Shown piece by piece: positions 24,574-29,531 of a stretch of DNA of 64,000 nt. A program made the translations under genes and the position numbers. Source of the DNA: Chloroflexota bacterium (GTDB lineage: Bacteria; Chloroflexota; Dehalococcoidia; Tepidiformales; Tepidiformaceae); assembly GCA_026710655.1 (NCBI GenBank), contig JAPOQN010000008.1, positions 62,001-126,000 on the forward strand, in the 5' to 3' direction. Every line of letters starts with the position of its first letter. Position 1 is the stretch's first letter. The notes under the pieces were generated by a model. The model was not told the DNA's origin and did no database searches. It was given only the letters and a program-made list of their open reading frames with translations.

Positions 24574-26964
24574 GTGAGCGGTTTCGGGCGGCTGATTGCC
24601 GGGCTCCTGGGTCTCGCCGTTGTCGGCGGCGCGATTGTGATGGCGCTGCGGGCGCTGAGTGGCGGGGACCGCGAAGCGCGTCCGGCACGGCGGACACCTC
24701 GACCGGCGCCCGTGCAGCGCACCACGGCCATCGTCGAGGCAGCGGAAGCGCCAACCATGCCGGAGGCGGCCCGAGAGCCGGAGAAGGGCTCCTGGCTGTT
24801 CGACCGCTGGCCGCGATTTGCGTGCCAGCACCCCTGGGTCGTGATCGCAGGGGCGGTCGTCTTCGTCGTCGTCTGCGGCGTGCTCTGGGGCACGATGCGG
24901 GGCGAATTCGGCACGGGCAGCTTCACGCTCCCAGGTACGGAGTCGCAGGATCTGAGCGACCTGCTCACCGAACGGTTCCCGGGGGCCGCGGGGGACACAA
25001 CCGAGATCGTCATCCGCGCGCCGGCGGGGGTGGCAAGTCCGGCAGTGCGGGAGGAGATCGAGGAGCTGATCGCGGAGGCGGCGGAGCTGCCTCAGGTACT
25101 GGCCGTGGCCTCCCCGTACGAGGAACAGGGACGCATCTCACCCGATGGGACGATCGCACGAATCACGGCGCAGTACGAAGTGGGCGCCAATGAAGTCGAA
25201 GAGCACAGCATTGAGGAGCTCTTCAGCTGGCGCGAGCGGGTAACACGCGAGGACCTGCAGGTGGAGCTGGGCGGCATCGTGGCAACAGCGGGCGAACGCG
25301 AACCCCCGGGAAGCTCGGAGCTCGTGGGGCTGGCGGCGGCGGCAGTCATCCTGCTCATCGCCTTCGGGACCGTGACGGCAGCGGGCCTGCCGATCTTTAC
25401 CGCGCTGCTGGCGCTTATCCCGGCCTTCTTCCTGATCGGGGTTGGCGCCTCGTTCGTGAATTTCGCCAGCTTCACGCCGCAGTTCGCGGCGATGATCGGT
25501 ATCGGGGGCGGGATCGACTACGCCCTCCTGGTCGTGACGCGTTTCCGCGAGGCGCTGACGACGGAGGAGACGGTCACCGAAGCGGTCGTGAAGTCAGCAG
25601 GGACGGCAGGGCACTCGGTGCTGTTCGCGGGGTGCAGCGTGGTCATCGCCCTTATGGGGCTGTGGGCGATGGGGATCCCGCTGCTCTCGCTGACCGCGAT
25701 GGGTCCCGCGCTGGCGGTCGCGCTGGCGGCGCTGGTCGCGTTATTCGTGTTGCCGGCGATTCTCGGGCTGGTGGGGCACCGGGTGAACCGGCTGAAGGTC
25801 CCGGGGATACGCGTCGCCGCCGTCCAGAACCAGAGCGGCATGGGCTACTGGCTGGCCCGCACGATCCAGCGGGCGCCGTGGCTGTGGCTCATCGTGGCGA
25901 CGGCCGGCCTGCTGGTCCTGGCGTATCCAGCGCTCGACGTGCGGCTGGGGGCGAGCGACGCGGGGAGCAACCCCACCTCGCTCAGCTCGCGGCGCTCCTA
26001 CGACCTGCTGGCGGAGGGGTTCGGCCCGGGCTACAACGGCCGGATGATCATCGGCGCCGCCATCGAGAACGAGGAACAGGCGCGGGCCTTCGCAGCGCTC
26101 CCGGAGGCGGTGGCCGCGGAACCAAACGTCGTCAACGTCTCCCCGGCGGCGTTCAACGAGGACCGGACAGCAGCATTGATCGTGCTGGTCCCGTCAAGCG
26201 CGCCGCAGGCGGAGGAGACCGACACCCTTGTGCACCATCTCCGGGACTCCCTGCCGGACCTCATGGCGCACACAGACGCCGAGGTGCTGGTTGGGGGCAC
26301 GACAGCAATCTTCATCGACATCGGGGAACGCGTGCGAGAGCGGATGCCGATATTCCTGGCGGCGGTGATCGGCGCGAGCTTCCTCCTGCTGATGGTGGTG
26401 TTCCGATCGCTGCTTGTGCCGATAAAGGCGGCGCTGATGAACGTGCTGGCAGCGGGCGCGGCCTTCGGCATCCTCGTCGCCATCTTCCAGTGGGGGTGGG
26501 GTGCGGACCTGATTGGGCTGGAGGGCACGGGACCGATCGAGTCCTTCCTGCCGATGATGATGTTCGCGGTTCTGTTCGGGCTCTCGATGGACTACGAAGT
26601 GTTCCTCGTGAGCCGCGTACGAGAGGAATACCTCGCGACGGGCGACAACGCCGAAGCGGTGGCGCGGGGCCTCGCCGCCACGAGCCGCGTCATCTCGGCA
26701 GCGGCGGCGATCATGGTGGCGGTGTTCCTCAGCTTCGCGCTGAGCGACTCGCGGGTGGTGAAGGAGTTCGGCATCGGGCTGGCAATAGCGATCTTCCTCG
26801 ATGCGACGGTCATCCGGCTGATCCTGGTGCCGGCCGCCATGCAGCTCATGAGCGACGCGAACTGGTGGCTGCCGGGCTGGCTCAACCGCTCCCTCCCCGG
26901 CCTCGGACTGAGCGACGCAAGCACGCGCGAAGCGCTTCCCGAGGCGGCGGCCGGCGGGGAGTAG
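24574..26964 (+). CDS. MMPL/RND-family transporter with extra N-terminal segment
   Basis: A 796-residue membrane protein of the MMPL (actinobacterial RND) type. It has two repeats, each with one transmembrane helix, a large outer domain and about five further helices. Conserved pieces are MIGIGGGIDYALLVVTRFRE in the first half and MFAVLFGLSMDYEVFLVSRVRE in the second, containing the proton-relay acidic residues. Unusually, residues 1-75 carry an additional hydrophobic helix followed by an Arg/Pro/Ala-rich linker before the normal start near WLFDRWPRF. It probably exports lipids or other hydrophobic compounds. It precedes the selenoprotein gene by 34 bases but has its own translation signals. 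Confidence 0.9.
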   Translation: MSGFGRLIAGLLGLAVVGGAIVMALRALSGGDREARPARRTPRPAPVQRTTAIVEAAEAPTMPEAAREPEKGSWLFDRWPRFACQHPWVVIAGAVVFVVVCGVLWGTMRGEFGTGSFTLPGTESQDLSDLLTERFPGAAGDTTEIVIRAPAGVASPAVREEIEELIAEAAELPQVLAVASPYEEQGRISPDGTIARITAQYEVGANEVEEHSIEELFSWRERVTREDLQVELGGIVATAGEREPPGSSELVGLAAAAVILLIAFGTVTAAGLPIFTALLALIPAFFLIGVGASFVNFASFTPQFAAMIGIGGGIDYALLVVTRFREALTTEETVTEAVVKSAGTAGHSVLFAGCSVVIALMGLWAMGIPLLSLTAMGPALAVALAALVALFVLPAILGLVGHRVNRLKVPGIRVAAVQNQSGMGYWLARTIQRAPWLWLIVATAGLLVLAYPALDVRLGASDAGSNPTSLSSRRSYDLLAEGFGPGYNGRMIIGAAIENEEQARAFAALPEAVAAEPNVVNVSPAAFNEDRTAALIVLVPSSAPQAEETDTLVHHLRDSLPDLMAHTDAEVLVGGTTAIFIDIGERVRERMPIFLAAVIGASFLLLMVVFRSLLVPIKAALMNVLAAGAAFGILVAIFQWGWGADLIGLEGTGPIESFLPMMMFAVLFGLSMDYEVFLVSRVREEYLATGDNAEAVARGLAATSRVISAAAAIMVAVFLSFALSDSRVVKEFGIGLAIAIFLDATVIRLILVPAAMQLMSDANWWLPGWLNRSLPGLGLSDASTREALPEAAAGGE

Positions 26965-26986: not shown

Positions 26987-26992
26987 TATACT
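26987..26992 (+). promoter_or_regulatory. TATACT -10 element, leaderless start of selenoprotein gene
   Basis: TATACT, the best -10 match near this gene, ends 6 bases before the ATG at 26999, and no ribosome-binding sequence is present. The mRNA should begin at the start codon. Confidence 0.55.
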
Positions 26993-26998
26993 CGCGGC

Positions 26999-27640
26999 AT
27001 GAGCGAAACAGCAGCCCGCACCGTCCTCACCGTCGTCTCAGACTTCGTCTGACCGTGGTGCTACCTCGGCCTCGGTGAGGTCGACCGGCTGAGGCAGGAG
27101 TACGAAGGGGTCGAGGTGCAGTTCGCGCCATACCTGCTCGACGCGACCGTTCCGCCCGAGGGCCGCCCCCAGCCACCGCCTTCCGGGCGGCGGAGCGAGG
27201 CGCGCACGTACATGGAGGAGCGGGCGGAGTCGGCGGGCATCCAGTTCACGCAGGGGAGGACGCATCGATCGAGCTCGCTGCTGTCGCTCCAGGCAGCGGA
27301 ATACGTGGCGGACCACGGTCTGCCGGCGGATGCATTCCACCGCGCGGTCTTCGAGGCGTACTTCGAGGATCTCGAGGACATCGGAAGCGTGGACACGCTC
27401 GTACGCATCGCAGAGGGAGCGGGGATTCCCGGGGAGGGGCTGCGGCAGGCGCTGGAGGACGGGGTCTACCGGGAGCGGGTGGAGGAAGCGGTCGAGGGGG
27501 CGCGCATGGCAGGCGTGCGCTCGGTGCCGACCTTCATCTTCGACGAGACCTACGCGATCGTGGGGGCGCAGGAGTACGAGACGTTCCAGGCGGTCATGAA
27601 GGAGCTCGGCCGCGAACCGCGGGCCGAGGGCGAGGGCTGA
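26999..27640 (+). CDS. DsbA/FrnE-family thiol oxidoreductase, predicted selenoprotein (Sec18)
   Basis: Read from ATG 26999 the frame gives MSETAARTVLTVVSDFV, then TGA (27050-27052), then PWCYLGLGEVDRL, and continues open to 27640 (213 residues). DsbA-family proteins of the FrnE type have S-D-x-x-C-P-W-C-[YF]-x-G here, so TGA replaces exactly the first active-site cysteine, giving U-P-W-C. The rest is a complete DsbA protein: a helical insertion in the middle and the cis-proline motif SVPTFIFDE near residue 180. The sequence after the TGA forms a SECIS-like hairpin. The stop overlaps the next ATG (TGATG). It probably acts in the cytoplasm, as no signal peptide is seen. The alternatives are a sequencing error (TGC to TGA) or a pseudogene, but no other lesion is visible. 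selA, selB and selC are not in this window. Confidence 0.82.
27069..27095 (+). other. putative bacterial SECIS hairpin
   Basis: GCCTCGGT (27069-27076) pairs with ACCG (27084-27087) and AGGC (27092-27095), leaving a 4-base bulge (27088-27091). The apical loop is GAGGTCG. The loop starts 24 bases after the TGA, and bacterial SECIS loops usually start about 16-37 bases after it. The loop contains GGU, as in the E. coli fdhF element. It lies inside the coding sequence, as bacterial SECIS elements do. Confidence 0.6.
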
Positions 27641-28146
27641 TGAACGACGAAACGCCACGCGTGCTGCAGACGGCGGGCGGGAGCGAGCGGCCCGATTGGC
27701 CGGCAGTCGAGAGCGCGGTTCGGCAGCTGGCCGTGAACTACGCGCTGGGCACGGACGCCATCGGCCGGGATGAGCCGGAGACGGGTCGGGCGCTGTACCA
27801 CCAGACGTTCACCCCCGACGCCGACATCTCCATCGCGGGCAACGCGGATACGCAGCGGACGGGTCCAGAGGAGTGGGTCGAGTTCGTGGAGGGCACGTTC
27901 CGGGGACTGGGGCACATCGCGACACAGCACCTGATCGGGAGCGTCAACATCGTCCCCGCCGAGGACGGCCAGAGCGCGGAGATGTCGACGTACATGCACG
28001 CCACGCACCTGCAGCCGAACGGCGACGCGTACCTGGTGATGCTGACGTACATCGACCACGCGGTGCGGACGGAGGAGGGCTGGCGCATCGCGAAGCGCAC
28101 CCTCTACCCGATGGCGAGCTGGGTGCAGCAGGCGCCCCAGGCCTAG
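27640..28146 (+). CDS. SnoaL-like (NTF2 fold) protein
   Basis: A 168-residue cone-fold protein of the SnoaL/ketosteroid-isomerase-like group. The first helix (DWPAVESAVRQLAVNYALGTD), ALYHQTFTPDADISIAG and the C-terminal GDAYLVMLTYIDHAVRTEEGWRI are typical. The ATG overlaps the stop of the selenoprotein gene, so they are co-translated. Members act as small hydrolases, isomerases, dehydratases or binding proteins; the role here is unknown. A second member lies at 60223-60612. Confidence 0.8.
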   Translation: MNDETPRVLQTAGGSERPDWPAVESAVRQLAVNYALGTDAIGRDEPETGRALYHQTFTPDADISIAGNADTQRTGPEEWVEFVEGTFRGLGHIATQHLIGSVNIVPAEDGQSAEMSTYMHATHLQPNGDAYLVMLTYIDHAVRTEEGWRIAKRTLYPMASWVQQAPQA

Positions 28147-28228: not shown

Positions 28229-28612
28229 ATGCCTTCGGAATTGTTCGAGAAGGGCCTGGCGATCCGGCGGGAGGTACTCGGGGACGAGTACGTGGACCGT
28301 TCGCTGGCGCAGGCCGACGAGTTCACCATGCCGCTGCAGGAGCTGGTGACGGAGCACGCATGGGGCGCGATCTGGGGTCGCGACGGACTGTCGCGCAGGG
28401 ATCGCAGCCTGCTGAACCTGGGGATGCTGACGGCGCTCAACCGACCGCACGAGCTGCGGCTGCACGTTCGCGGGGCGCTGAACAACGGGCTTTCGCGCGA
28501 GGAGATTCGCGAGGTGCTGCTGCAGGCGGCGGTCTATTGCGGCGCGCCGGCGGCGCTCGACGGCTTCCGCGTCGCACGGGAGGTGTTCGCGGAGGTCGAC
28601 GGCGATGCCTGA
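28229..28612 (+). CDS. carboxymuconolactone decarboxylase family protein
   Basis: A 127-residue protein close in length to 4-carboxymuconolactone decarboxylase (PcaC). It contains WGRDGLSRRDRSLLNLGMLT, HVRGALNNGLSREEIREVLL and a C-terminal YCGAPAALDGFRVA. It lacks the C-x2-C pair of the AhpD branch, so it is not a peroxiredoxin partner. A strong AAGGAGGGG site precedes the ATG. It overlaps the next gene by 8 bases, pointing to a shared pathway with that dehydrogenase. Confidence 0.9.
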   Translation: MPSELFEKGLAIRREVLGDEYVDRSLAQADEFTMPLQELVTEHAWGAIWGRDGLSRRDRSLLNLGMLTALNRPHELRLHVRGALNNGLSREEIREVLLQAAVYCGAPAALDGFRVAREVFAEVDGDA

Positions 28613-29531
28613 GTCGGAGGCGATCACCCGCATCGGATTCGTGGGGCTGGGGAACATGGGGTGGCCGATGGCGCACCTGCTCGACCCGCACTATTCCCTC
28701 ACGGTCCTGGATGCCCGCCCAGAGGTGGCGGAGGCTTTTGCAGCGGAGCACCGGGCCAGGGCGACGACCAGCCTCGAGGCGCTGGCGGAGGCGAGCGAGG
28801 CCGTCATCACCATGCTGCCGAACGGCGACATTGTGCGCGAAGTCGCCATCGGCGGGGCGGACGGGGGCGACCTCGTTGCGGGGATGGCGTCCGGCAGCGT
28901 GCTCATCGACATGAGCAGCTCCGCGCCGCTGGGCACGCGCCAGCTCGCGGAGGACCTTCGCGCCTCCGGGGTGGCGGTTGTGGACGCGCCCGTCTCGGGT
29001 GGGGTTGCGGGGGCGCGAAACGGGTCGCTCGCAATCATGGTGGGAGGAGAGCCGGACGAGATCGCCCGCTGCCACCCGGTGTTCGAACACCTGGGCCGGG
29101 TCGTCTACGAAATGGGCGGGTCGGGGACGGGCCACGCCATGAAGGCGCTCAATAACTACTGTTCGGCCGCCGCGCTGTCGTCGGCCTGCGAAGCGTTGAT
29201 CGTGGGGGACCGCATGGGGCTGGAGCCCGCGAAGATGGTTGACGTGCTCAACGCCTCGTCGGGCCGGAGCGCGGCAACGCAGGGAAAGATCGCGGAGGAG
29301 ATCCTGACCCGGGATTTCAGCGCCGGGTTCACCATTGCGTTGATGGCGAAGGATGTGGGCATCGCCGGAGGGCTGGCGGAAGGGCTGGGACTGGAGGCGC
29401 CGATCCTGGCCCGCACCCGCGACCTCTGGAAGGACGCCGCCGAGCTGCTGGGAGCAACGGCCGGGGTCACGGAGATCGTGAAGCTCTGGGAGGAGTGGAA
29501 CGGGGGCGAGCTGGGGTCGGGGTCTGGCTAA
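28605..29531 (+). CDS. 3-hydroxyisobutyrate-dehydrogenase-family oxidoreductase
   Basis: A 308-residue beta-hydroxyacid dehydrogenase. The nucleotide loop is GLGNMG (14-19), the substrate-binding motif DAPVSGGVAGA follows near 127, and the catalytic lysine is Lys180 in GHAMKALNN. The C-terminal all-helical domain is complete. NAD versus NADP use is undecided. Possible substrates are 3-hydroxyisobutyrate, tartronate semialdehyde or other short hydroxy acids. It is co-translated with the preceding decarboxylase-family gene. Confidence 0.92.
   Translation: MPESEAITRIGFVGLGNMGWPMAHLLDPHYSLTVLDARPEVAEAFAAEHRARATTSLEALAEASEAVITMLPNGDIVREVAIGGADGGDLVAGMASGSVLIDMSSSAPLGTRQLAEDLRASGVAVVDAPVSGGVAGARNGSLAIMVGGEPDEIARCHPVFEHLGRVVYEMGGSGTGHAMKALNNYCSAAALSSACEALIVGDRMGLEPAKMVDVLNASSGRSAATQGKIAEEILTRDFSAGFTIALMAKDVGIAGGLAEGLGLEAPILARTRDLWKDAAELLGATAGVTEIVKLWEEWNGGELGSGSG

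Follow-up and report, generated by a model that had tools for sequence, protein, structure and literature searches.

DsbA-like proteins with selenocysteine (Sec) in a UxxC motif (COG2761/PF01323) were first described in 2005 from the Sargasso Sea (PMC1088965). The family was listed again in 2006 (PMC1794560) and in 2008, as "DsbA 1" (PMC2398784), and the "DsbA-like protein form 1" of a 2026 study is the same DsbA-like selenoprotein family (PMC13188914). In the portions of these reports accessible to us, its hosts are marine metagenome reads, Deltaproteobacteria, Clostridia and Asgard archaea (PMC1088965, PMC1794560, PMC2398784, PMC13188914), and within this limited coverage of the literature we found nothing that ties the family to Chloroflexota. 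FrnE of Deinococcus radiodurans (drFrnE) is a predicted cytoplasmic thiol oxidoreductase, for which a C-terminal CX4C motif has been proposed to serve in regeneration; FrnE of Streptomyces roseofulvus and of D. maricopensis is without this motif (PMC8945050). Here we describe a frnE-like gene with an in-frame TGA codon, found in a window (the whole stretch of Chloroflexota DNA that was analysed) of 64 kb. All window features given below lie on the + strand.

A DSBA-family reading frame with one internal TGA

The frnE-like gene (26999..27640) runs from an ATG at 26999 to a TGA stop at 27638-27640, and its single internal stop is the TGA at 27050-27052. This TGA is codon 18, and read-through gives the sequence VVSDFV-U-PWCYLG within a product of 213 residues, the N-terminal part of which is MSETAARTVLTVVSDFV-U-PWCYLG. 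The sequence-only reading had described a continuous frame broken only at this codon, and the coordinates and the motif agree with it. It had also held that gene calling would miss the catalytic motif; the mechanical ORF list indeed contains only 27116-27640 (GTG start, 174 aa), which does not include the motif.

The Pfam domain DSBA (PF01323) spans residues 10-199 of the read-through protein with 102.7 bits (E = 2.8e-29; curated cut-off 25.6 bits). When the entire genome was searched with the profile, this locus was the best DSBA match, and the alignment is continuous through the TGA. The protein encoded by the 17 codons 5' of the TGA is conserved in same-genus relatives, with changes mostly at third codon positions. 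The conservation and the domain match of the read-through frame are far beyond chance.

Residue 18 in relatives

Among 60 related genomes, a homologue was found in 42 and residue 18 could be read in 41. The codon is TGA in 32 of the 41 (two of these also carry a Cys copy), and the other nine have Cys only. These class-level relatives comprise 34 distinct sequences with TGA at residue 18. In a phylum-wide sample of ~300 genomes, 35 had a match with an E-value of 1e-25 or below; of 28 further loci read, single-contig genomes included, 27 have TGA and one has TGC. Class and phylum together, codon 18 is TGA in 61 homologues and TGC or TGT in all other readable ones. The expectation that aligned FrnE/DsbA homologues would show Cys or Sec at this residue was thus borne out wherever it could be read.

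The state of codon 18 follows the Sec genes. All 32 TGA genomes have selA or a strong tRNA-Sec match, whereas eight of the nine Cys-only genomes have neither (Fisher p ~1e-7, uncorrected for kinship and with some genomes incomplete). In this count the Tepidiforma-type genomes, with tRNA-Sec matches of only 48-49 bits, were scored as absent. The ninth Cys-only genome (G024) has selA and a strong tRNA-Sec, and its homologue is only ~32% identical. Both states occur in a single genus, where G029 has TGA with selA and selC, and G023 has TGC and neither gene.

These comparisons bear on two alternatives. The split ORF and the existence of Cys homologues in the same family could be explained by a nonsense mutation to TGA in an ordinary Cys-type FrnE, i.e., a pseudogene. 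However, the identical TGA recurs across the phylum and in genomes whose versions are only 45-85% identical in protein, purifying selection acts on both sides of the TGA, and the hairpin described below covaries, leaving a pseudogene next to no likelihood. A sequencing or assembly error at 27050-27052 would be conceivable in a fragmented draft of 71 contigs, and reads with TGC or TGT there had been named as a way to overturn the Sec assignment. However, the TGA stands at the equivalent codon in six separately assembled same-genus genomes and in complete single-contig genomes of other families, making such an error extremely improbable. We retain the reading of the TGA as Sec18.

A second group of Sec-FrnE paralogues (AARRVA type; L047, L134-L137, L142) is ~35% identical, and G009 and G019 carry both paralogues. 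In one of these second copies (L137, G019:C73) the matched frame contains two TGA codons, the second of which may be an ordinary stop. Another locus (L172, G320) is a Cys-type copy that retains a SECIS-like hairpin, while the other sampled members of its genus mostly have TGA; judged from the sequences, it is possibly a recent Sec-to-Cys change.

A candidate SECIS hairpin downstream of the TGA

A predicted bacterial SECIS hairpin, UCGGCCUC-GGU-GAGGUCGA, lies at 27066..27084. Its stem has 8 bp, its apical loop GGU (27074-27076) starts 21 nt after the UGA, and its folding energy is -10.7 kcal/mol. The published bSECIS rules are a loop of 3-9 nt with a G in its first two positions, a stem of at least 4 bp, a distance of 16-37 nt from the UGA and an MFE <= -7.5 kcal/mol (PMC13188914); the window hairpin falls within these limits. 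So do 56 of the 61 TGA sequences, compared with 2 of 15 Cys sequences (Fisher 5e-9, uncorrected for kinship); five TGA homologues fail the energy rule. The element also encodes residues 23-29 (LGLGEVD), and the arrangement UCGGCCUC-GNN-GAGGUCGA directly follows the U-P-W-C-Y codons in all close relatives.

In 24 TGA sequences 97.4% of the cells are paired and the covariation exceeds that of all 500 shuffles, and slid registers are only 22-54% paired. Phylum-wide, the variants seen are C-G, U-A, A-U, U-G and G-U at pair 22-30, U-A, U-G, C-G and A-U at pair 23-29, and C-G and G-C at pair 24-28. The control alignment of Cys genes retains 71% pairing at the equivalent register, arising partly through the shared protein sequence. 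When stability was compared with synonymous-codon randomisation, the median z was -1.66 for TGA genes versus -0.23 for Cys genes (Mann-Whitney p 9e-5); however, p was below 0.05 in only 16 of 34 TGA sequences, and the window's own sequence gave a modest p of 0.037. Since folding energy discriminates poorly when taken by itself, the case for a SECIS element rests on the covariation, the register and the contrast with the Cys genes.

In the AARRVA-type group the hairpin lies one base further on, and no significant covariation was found among its seven sequences. In L143, a distant member, the loop reads GGUCU, the loop sequence of E. coli fdhF. With its covariation, the set of 61 hairpin sequences is a useful description of Chloroflexota SECIS elements.

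Sec machinery and further candidate selenoproteins

The source genome, a 3.14-Mb draft in 71 contigs that is 93% complete, was searched family by family. We found a tRNA-Sec gene (selC; 71 bits, cut-off 47), to which ARAGORN assigns the anticodon TCA, together with selA (517 bits), selB (300 bits) and selD (345 bits). The four genes that the sequence-only reading had proposed to look for are therefore all present, and a finding that would have spoken against Sec, a genome without the machinery, is excluded. The selD gene has an in-frame TGA of its own (LTDLTGCGG-U-ASKAG) and lies on the same contig, ~32 kb upstream of the frnE-like gene. It is located at G000:C8:56278-57213 (L131), ~4.8 kb before the window start.

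Four AhpC/TSA-type (peroxiredoxin-like) genes, whose read-through frames were inspected by eye, have TGA at the active-site position, in the contexts FTGG-U, EW-U-PFC and, in two paralogues, SW-U-GC. They lie on contigs C32, C5 and C45 (L161, L166, L167, L168), and two close paralogues are ~1 kb apart. These four are likely to be further selenoproteins. Because tRNA-Sec, selA, selB, selD and the TGA-bearing selD and AhpC/TSA genes occur together, the organism very probably makes selenoproteins. A crude scan of the 64-kb window for other frames joined through TGA gave ~40 matches, none of them convincing besides the frnE-like gene.

A read-through frame by itself does not separate Sec from Cys or Trp, and UGA might be read as another amino acid, through genome-wide reassignment or near-cognate insertion of Trp or Cys. 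However, ordinary genes of this genome, the frnE-like gene included, terminate with TGA, the Sec system is complete and its tRNA-Sec has a UCA anticodon, and the SECIS-type hairpin goes with the TGA version of the gene. Decoding as another amino acid is hardly credible. The claim that the TGA specifies Sec in a U-P-W-C motif is supported by the Sec genes, the conservation of residue 18 and the covarying hairpin.

Start codon, promoter and neighbouring genes

A -10-like box, TATACT (26987..26992), ends 6 nt before the ATG. Of the 23 relatives checked, which are of both Sec and Cys types, 20 have this TANNNT box, as TATACT or a close variant, at position -12 or -13 relative to the start codon, and beyond the genus the box keeps its position while the remaining upstream sequence is variable. 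Because a -10 box at this place puts the transcription start at or beside the ATG, its position suggests that the mRNA is leaderless, and it fixes the start codon at ATG 26999. Transcripts without leaders may be widespread in this Dehalococcoidia family. It is an even bet that a cytosolic seleno-FrnE is made from leaderless mRNA throughout the phylum, with SelB recoding at codon 18 operating on transcripts that have neither a 5' UTR nor a Shine-Dalgarno sequence. The alternative in which the cell makes nothing but the short ORF at 27116-27640 (174 aa), as the mechanical ORF finder returned it, with a non-coding leader upstream, deserves practically no weight, given that this product would be without beta-strand 1, the active site and helix 1, that the upstream codons are kept as VVSDFV in both Sec and Cys homologues, and that the -10 box keeps a fixed distance from ATG 26999.

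Upstream of the full-length frnE-like gene lies a gene for an MMPL-family transporter (24574..26964). Downstream, a gene for a SnoaL_4-domain protein (27640..28146), kept in six same-genus relatives, overlaps the frnE stop with its start (TGATG) and is probably co-transcribed with the frnE-like gene. It is followed by genes for a 4-carboxymuconolactone decarboxylase-like protein (PcaC; 28229..28612; TIGR02425, 161 bits against a cut-off of 155.7) and a 3-hydroxyisobutyrate dehydrogenase-like protein (28605..29531). Six genomes of the genus share this gene order, which was not found at the more distant loci tested. Because it is limited to the genus, the neighbours reveal little about function. 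A blastn search against plasmids gave no match.

Predicted fold and proposed mechanism

An AlphaFold2 model built on an alignment of 30 sequences has a pLDDT of 95.2 and a pTM of 0.90. In the model, residue 18 directly precedes helix 19-34, as expected for the nucleophile of a Trx fold. Among experimentally determined structures, the closest are FrnE of D. radiodurans (TM 0.82) and S. coelicolor SCO1869. Residue 18, W20, C21 and P177 are among the invariant positions of the alignment. The TGC at 27059..27061 encodes Cys21, the predicted resolving residue of U-P-W-C, and the Pro177 codon (27527..27529) stands at the cis-Pro position of the Trx fold (SVPTF), where the fold suggests that the proline would be in the cis state. 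A search of the 213 residues for Cys besides Sec18 and Cys21 found none, and there is no C-terminal CX4C. By inspection only, the N-terminus does not resemble a signal peptide; a protein that would be cytoplasmic on this basis, a CPWC-type motif and the drFrnE fold together place it in the FrnE subfamily. Identity with 2-hydroxychromene-2-carboxylate isomerase or GST kappa, in which a catalytic Ser replaces the CxxC pair, was rejected, as both motif positions are Cys or Sec throughout the alignment; proteins of this kind also score lower in the fold and sequence searches.

On the reading frame, the DSBA match, the homologues and the predicted structure, the gene almost certainly encodes a cytosolic FrnE-type thiol-disulfide oxidoreductase with Sec as the nucleophilic active-site residue. 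We infer from the sequence data that Sec is in fact inserted at residue 18. The UGA at codon 18 would be decoded by SelB and Sec-tRNA(Sec), and the hairpin starting 13 nt after the UGA (loop at 21 nt) would direct the insertion. In the resulting Trx fold, Sec18 would sit at the N-terminus of helix 1 with Cys21 as the resolving residue, and electrons would be exchanged with disulfides or oxidised thiols via a selenenylsulfide. Because the protein has no other Cys and no C-terminal CX4C, an external reductant, e.g., thioredoxin or a low-molecular-weight thiol, would be required for recycling. By analogy with the Deinococcus literature, the most likely role is that of a cytosolic reductase under oxidative stress; the reductase rather than oxidase direction, the substrate and the partner are all putative.

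Significance and comparison with known systems

The full-length frame corrects an annotation that loses the catalytic motif, and judging from the homologues a seleno-oxidoreductase is probably mis-annotated in many genomes of Chloroflexota. Sec and Cys counterparts, which in one case come from a single genus, are a natural series for examining the benefit of Sec in a cytosolic disulfide enzyme, and also for asking how Sec use gets lost.

In both sequence (E 4.8e-17) and fold, the best match is FrnE of D. radiodurans (DR_0659; PDB 5CO3, 5CNW and others), whose CPWC occupies the equivalent place. The protein described here differs from drFrnE in having Sec instead of the first Cys and in lacking the C-terminal CX4C, as the FrnE proteins of S. 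roseofulvus and D. maricopensis also do. The Cys-type FrnE of Tepidiforma and of other Sec-less relatives in the same family is ~45-51% identical and has the same architecture. However, it has TGC or TGT at residue 18, the SECIS hairpin is mostly missing, and the genomes are without selA and have at best a weak tRNA-Sec match.

The likeness to the DsbA-like selenoproteins is close: the Pfam family is the same, with a DSBA match above the cut-off, Sec is the first residue of a UxxC-type motif (UPWC), Cys homologues are widespread and a SECIS element lies downstream. Unlike in the published records, as far as their accessible text goes, the gene is common in Chloroflexota, the kinship being judged by family and motif only. 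By domain and motif, the gene belongs to a selenoprotein family that is already known; within the same coverage of those records, what may be new is how widely it occurs in Chloroflexota.
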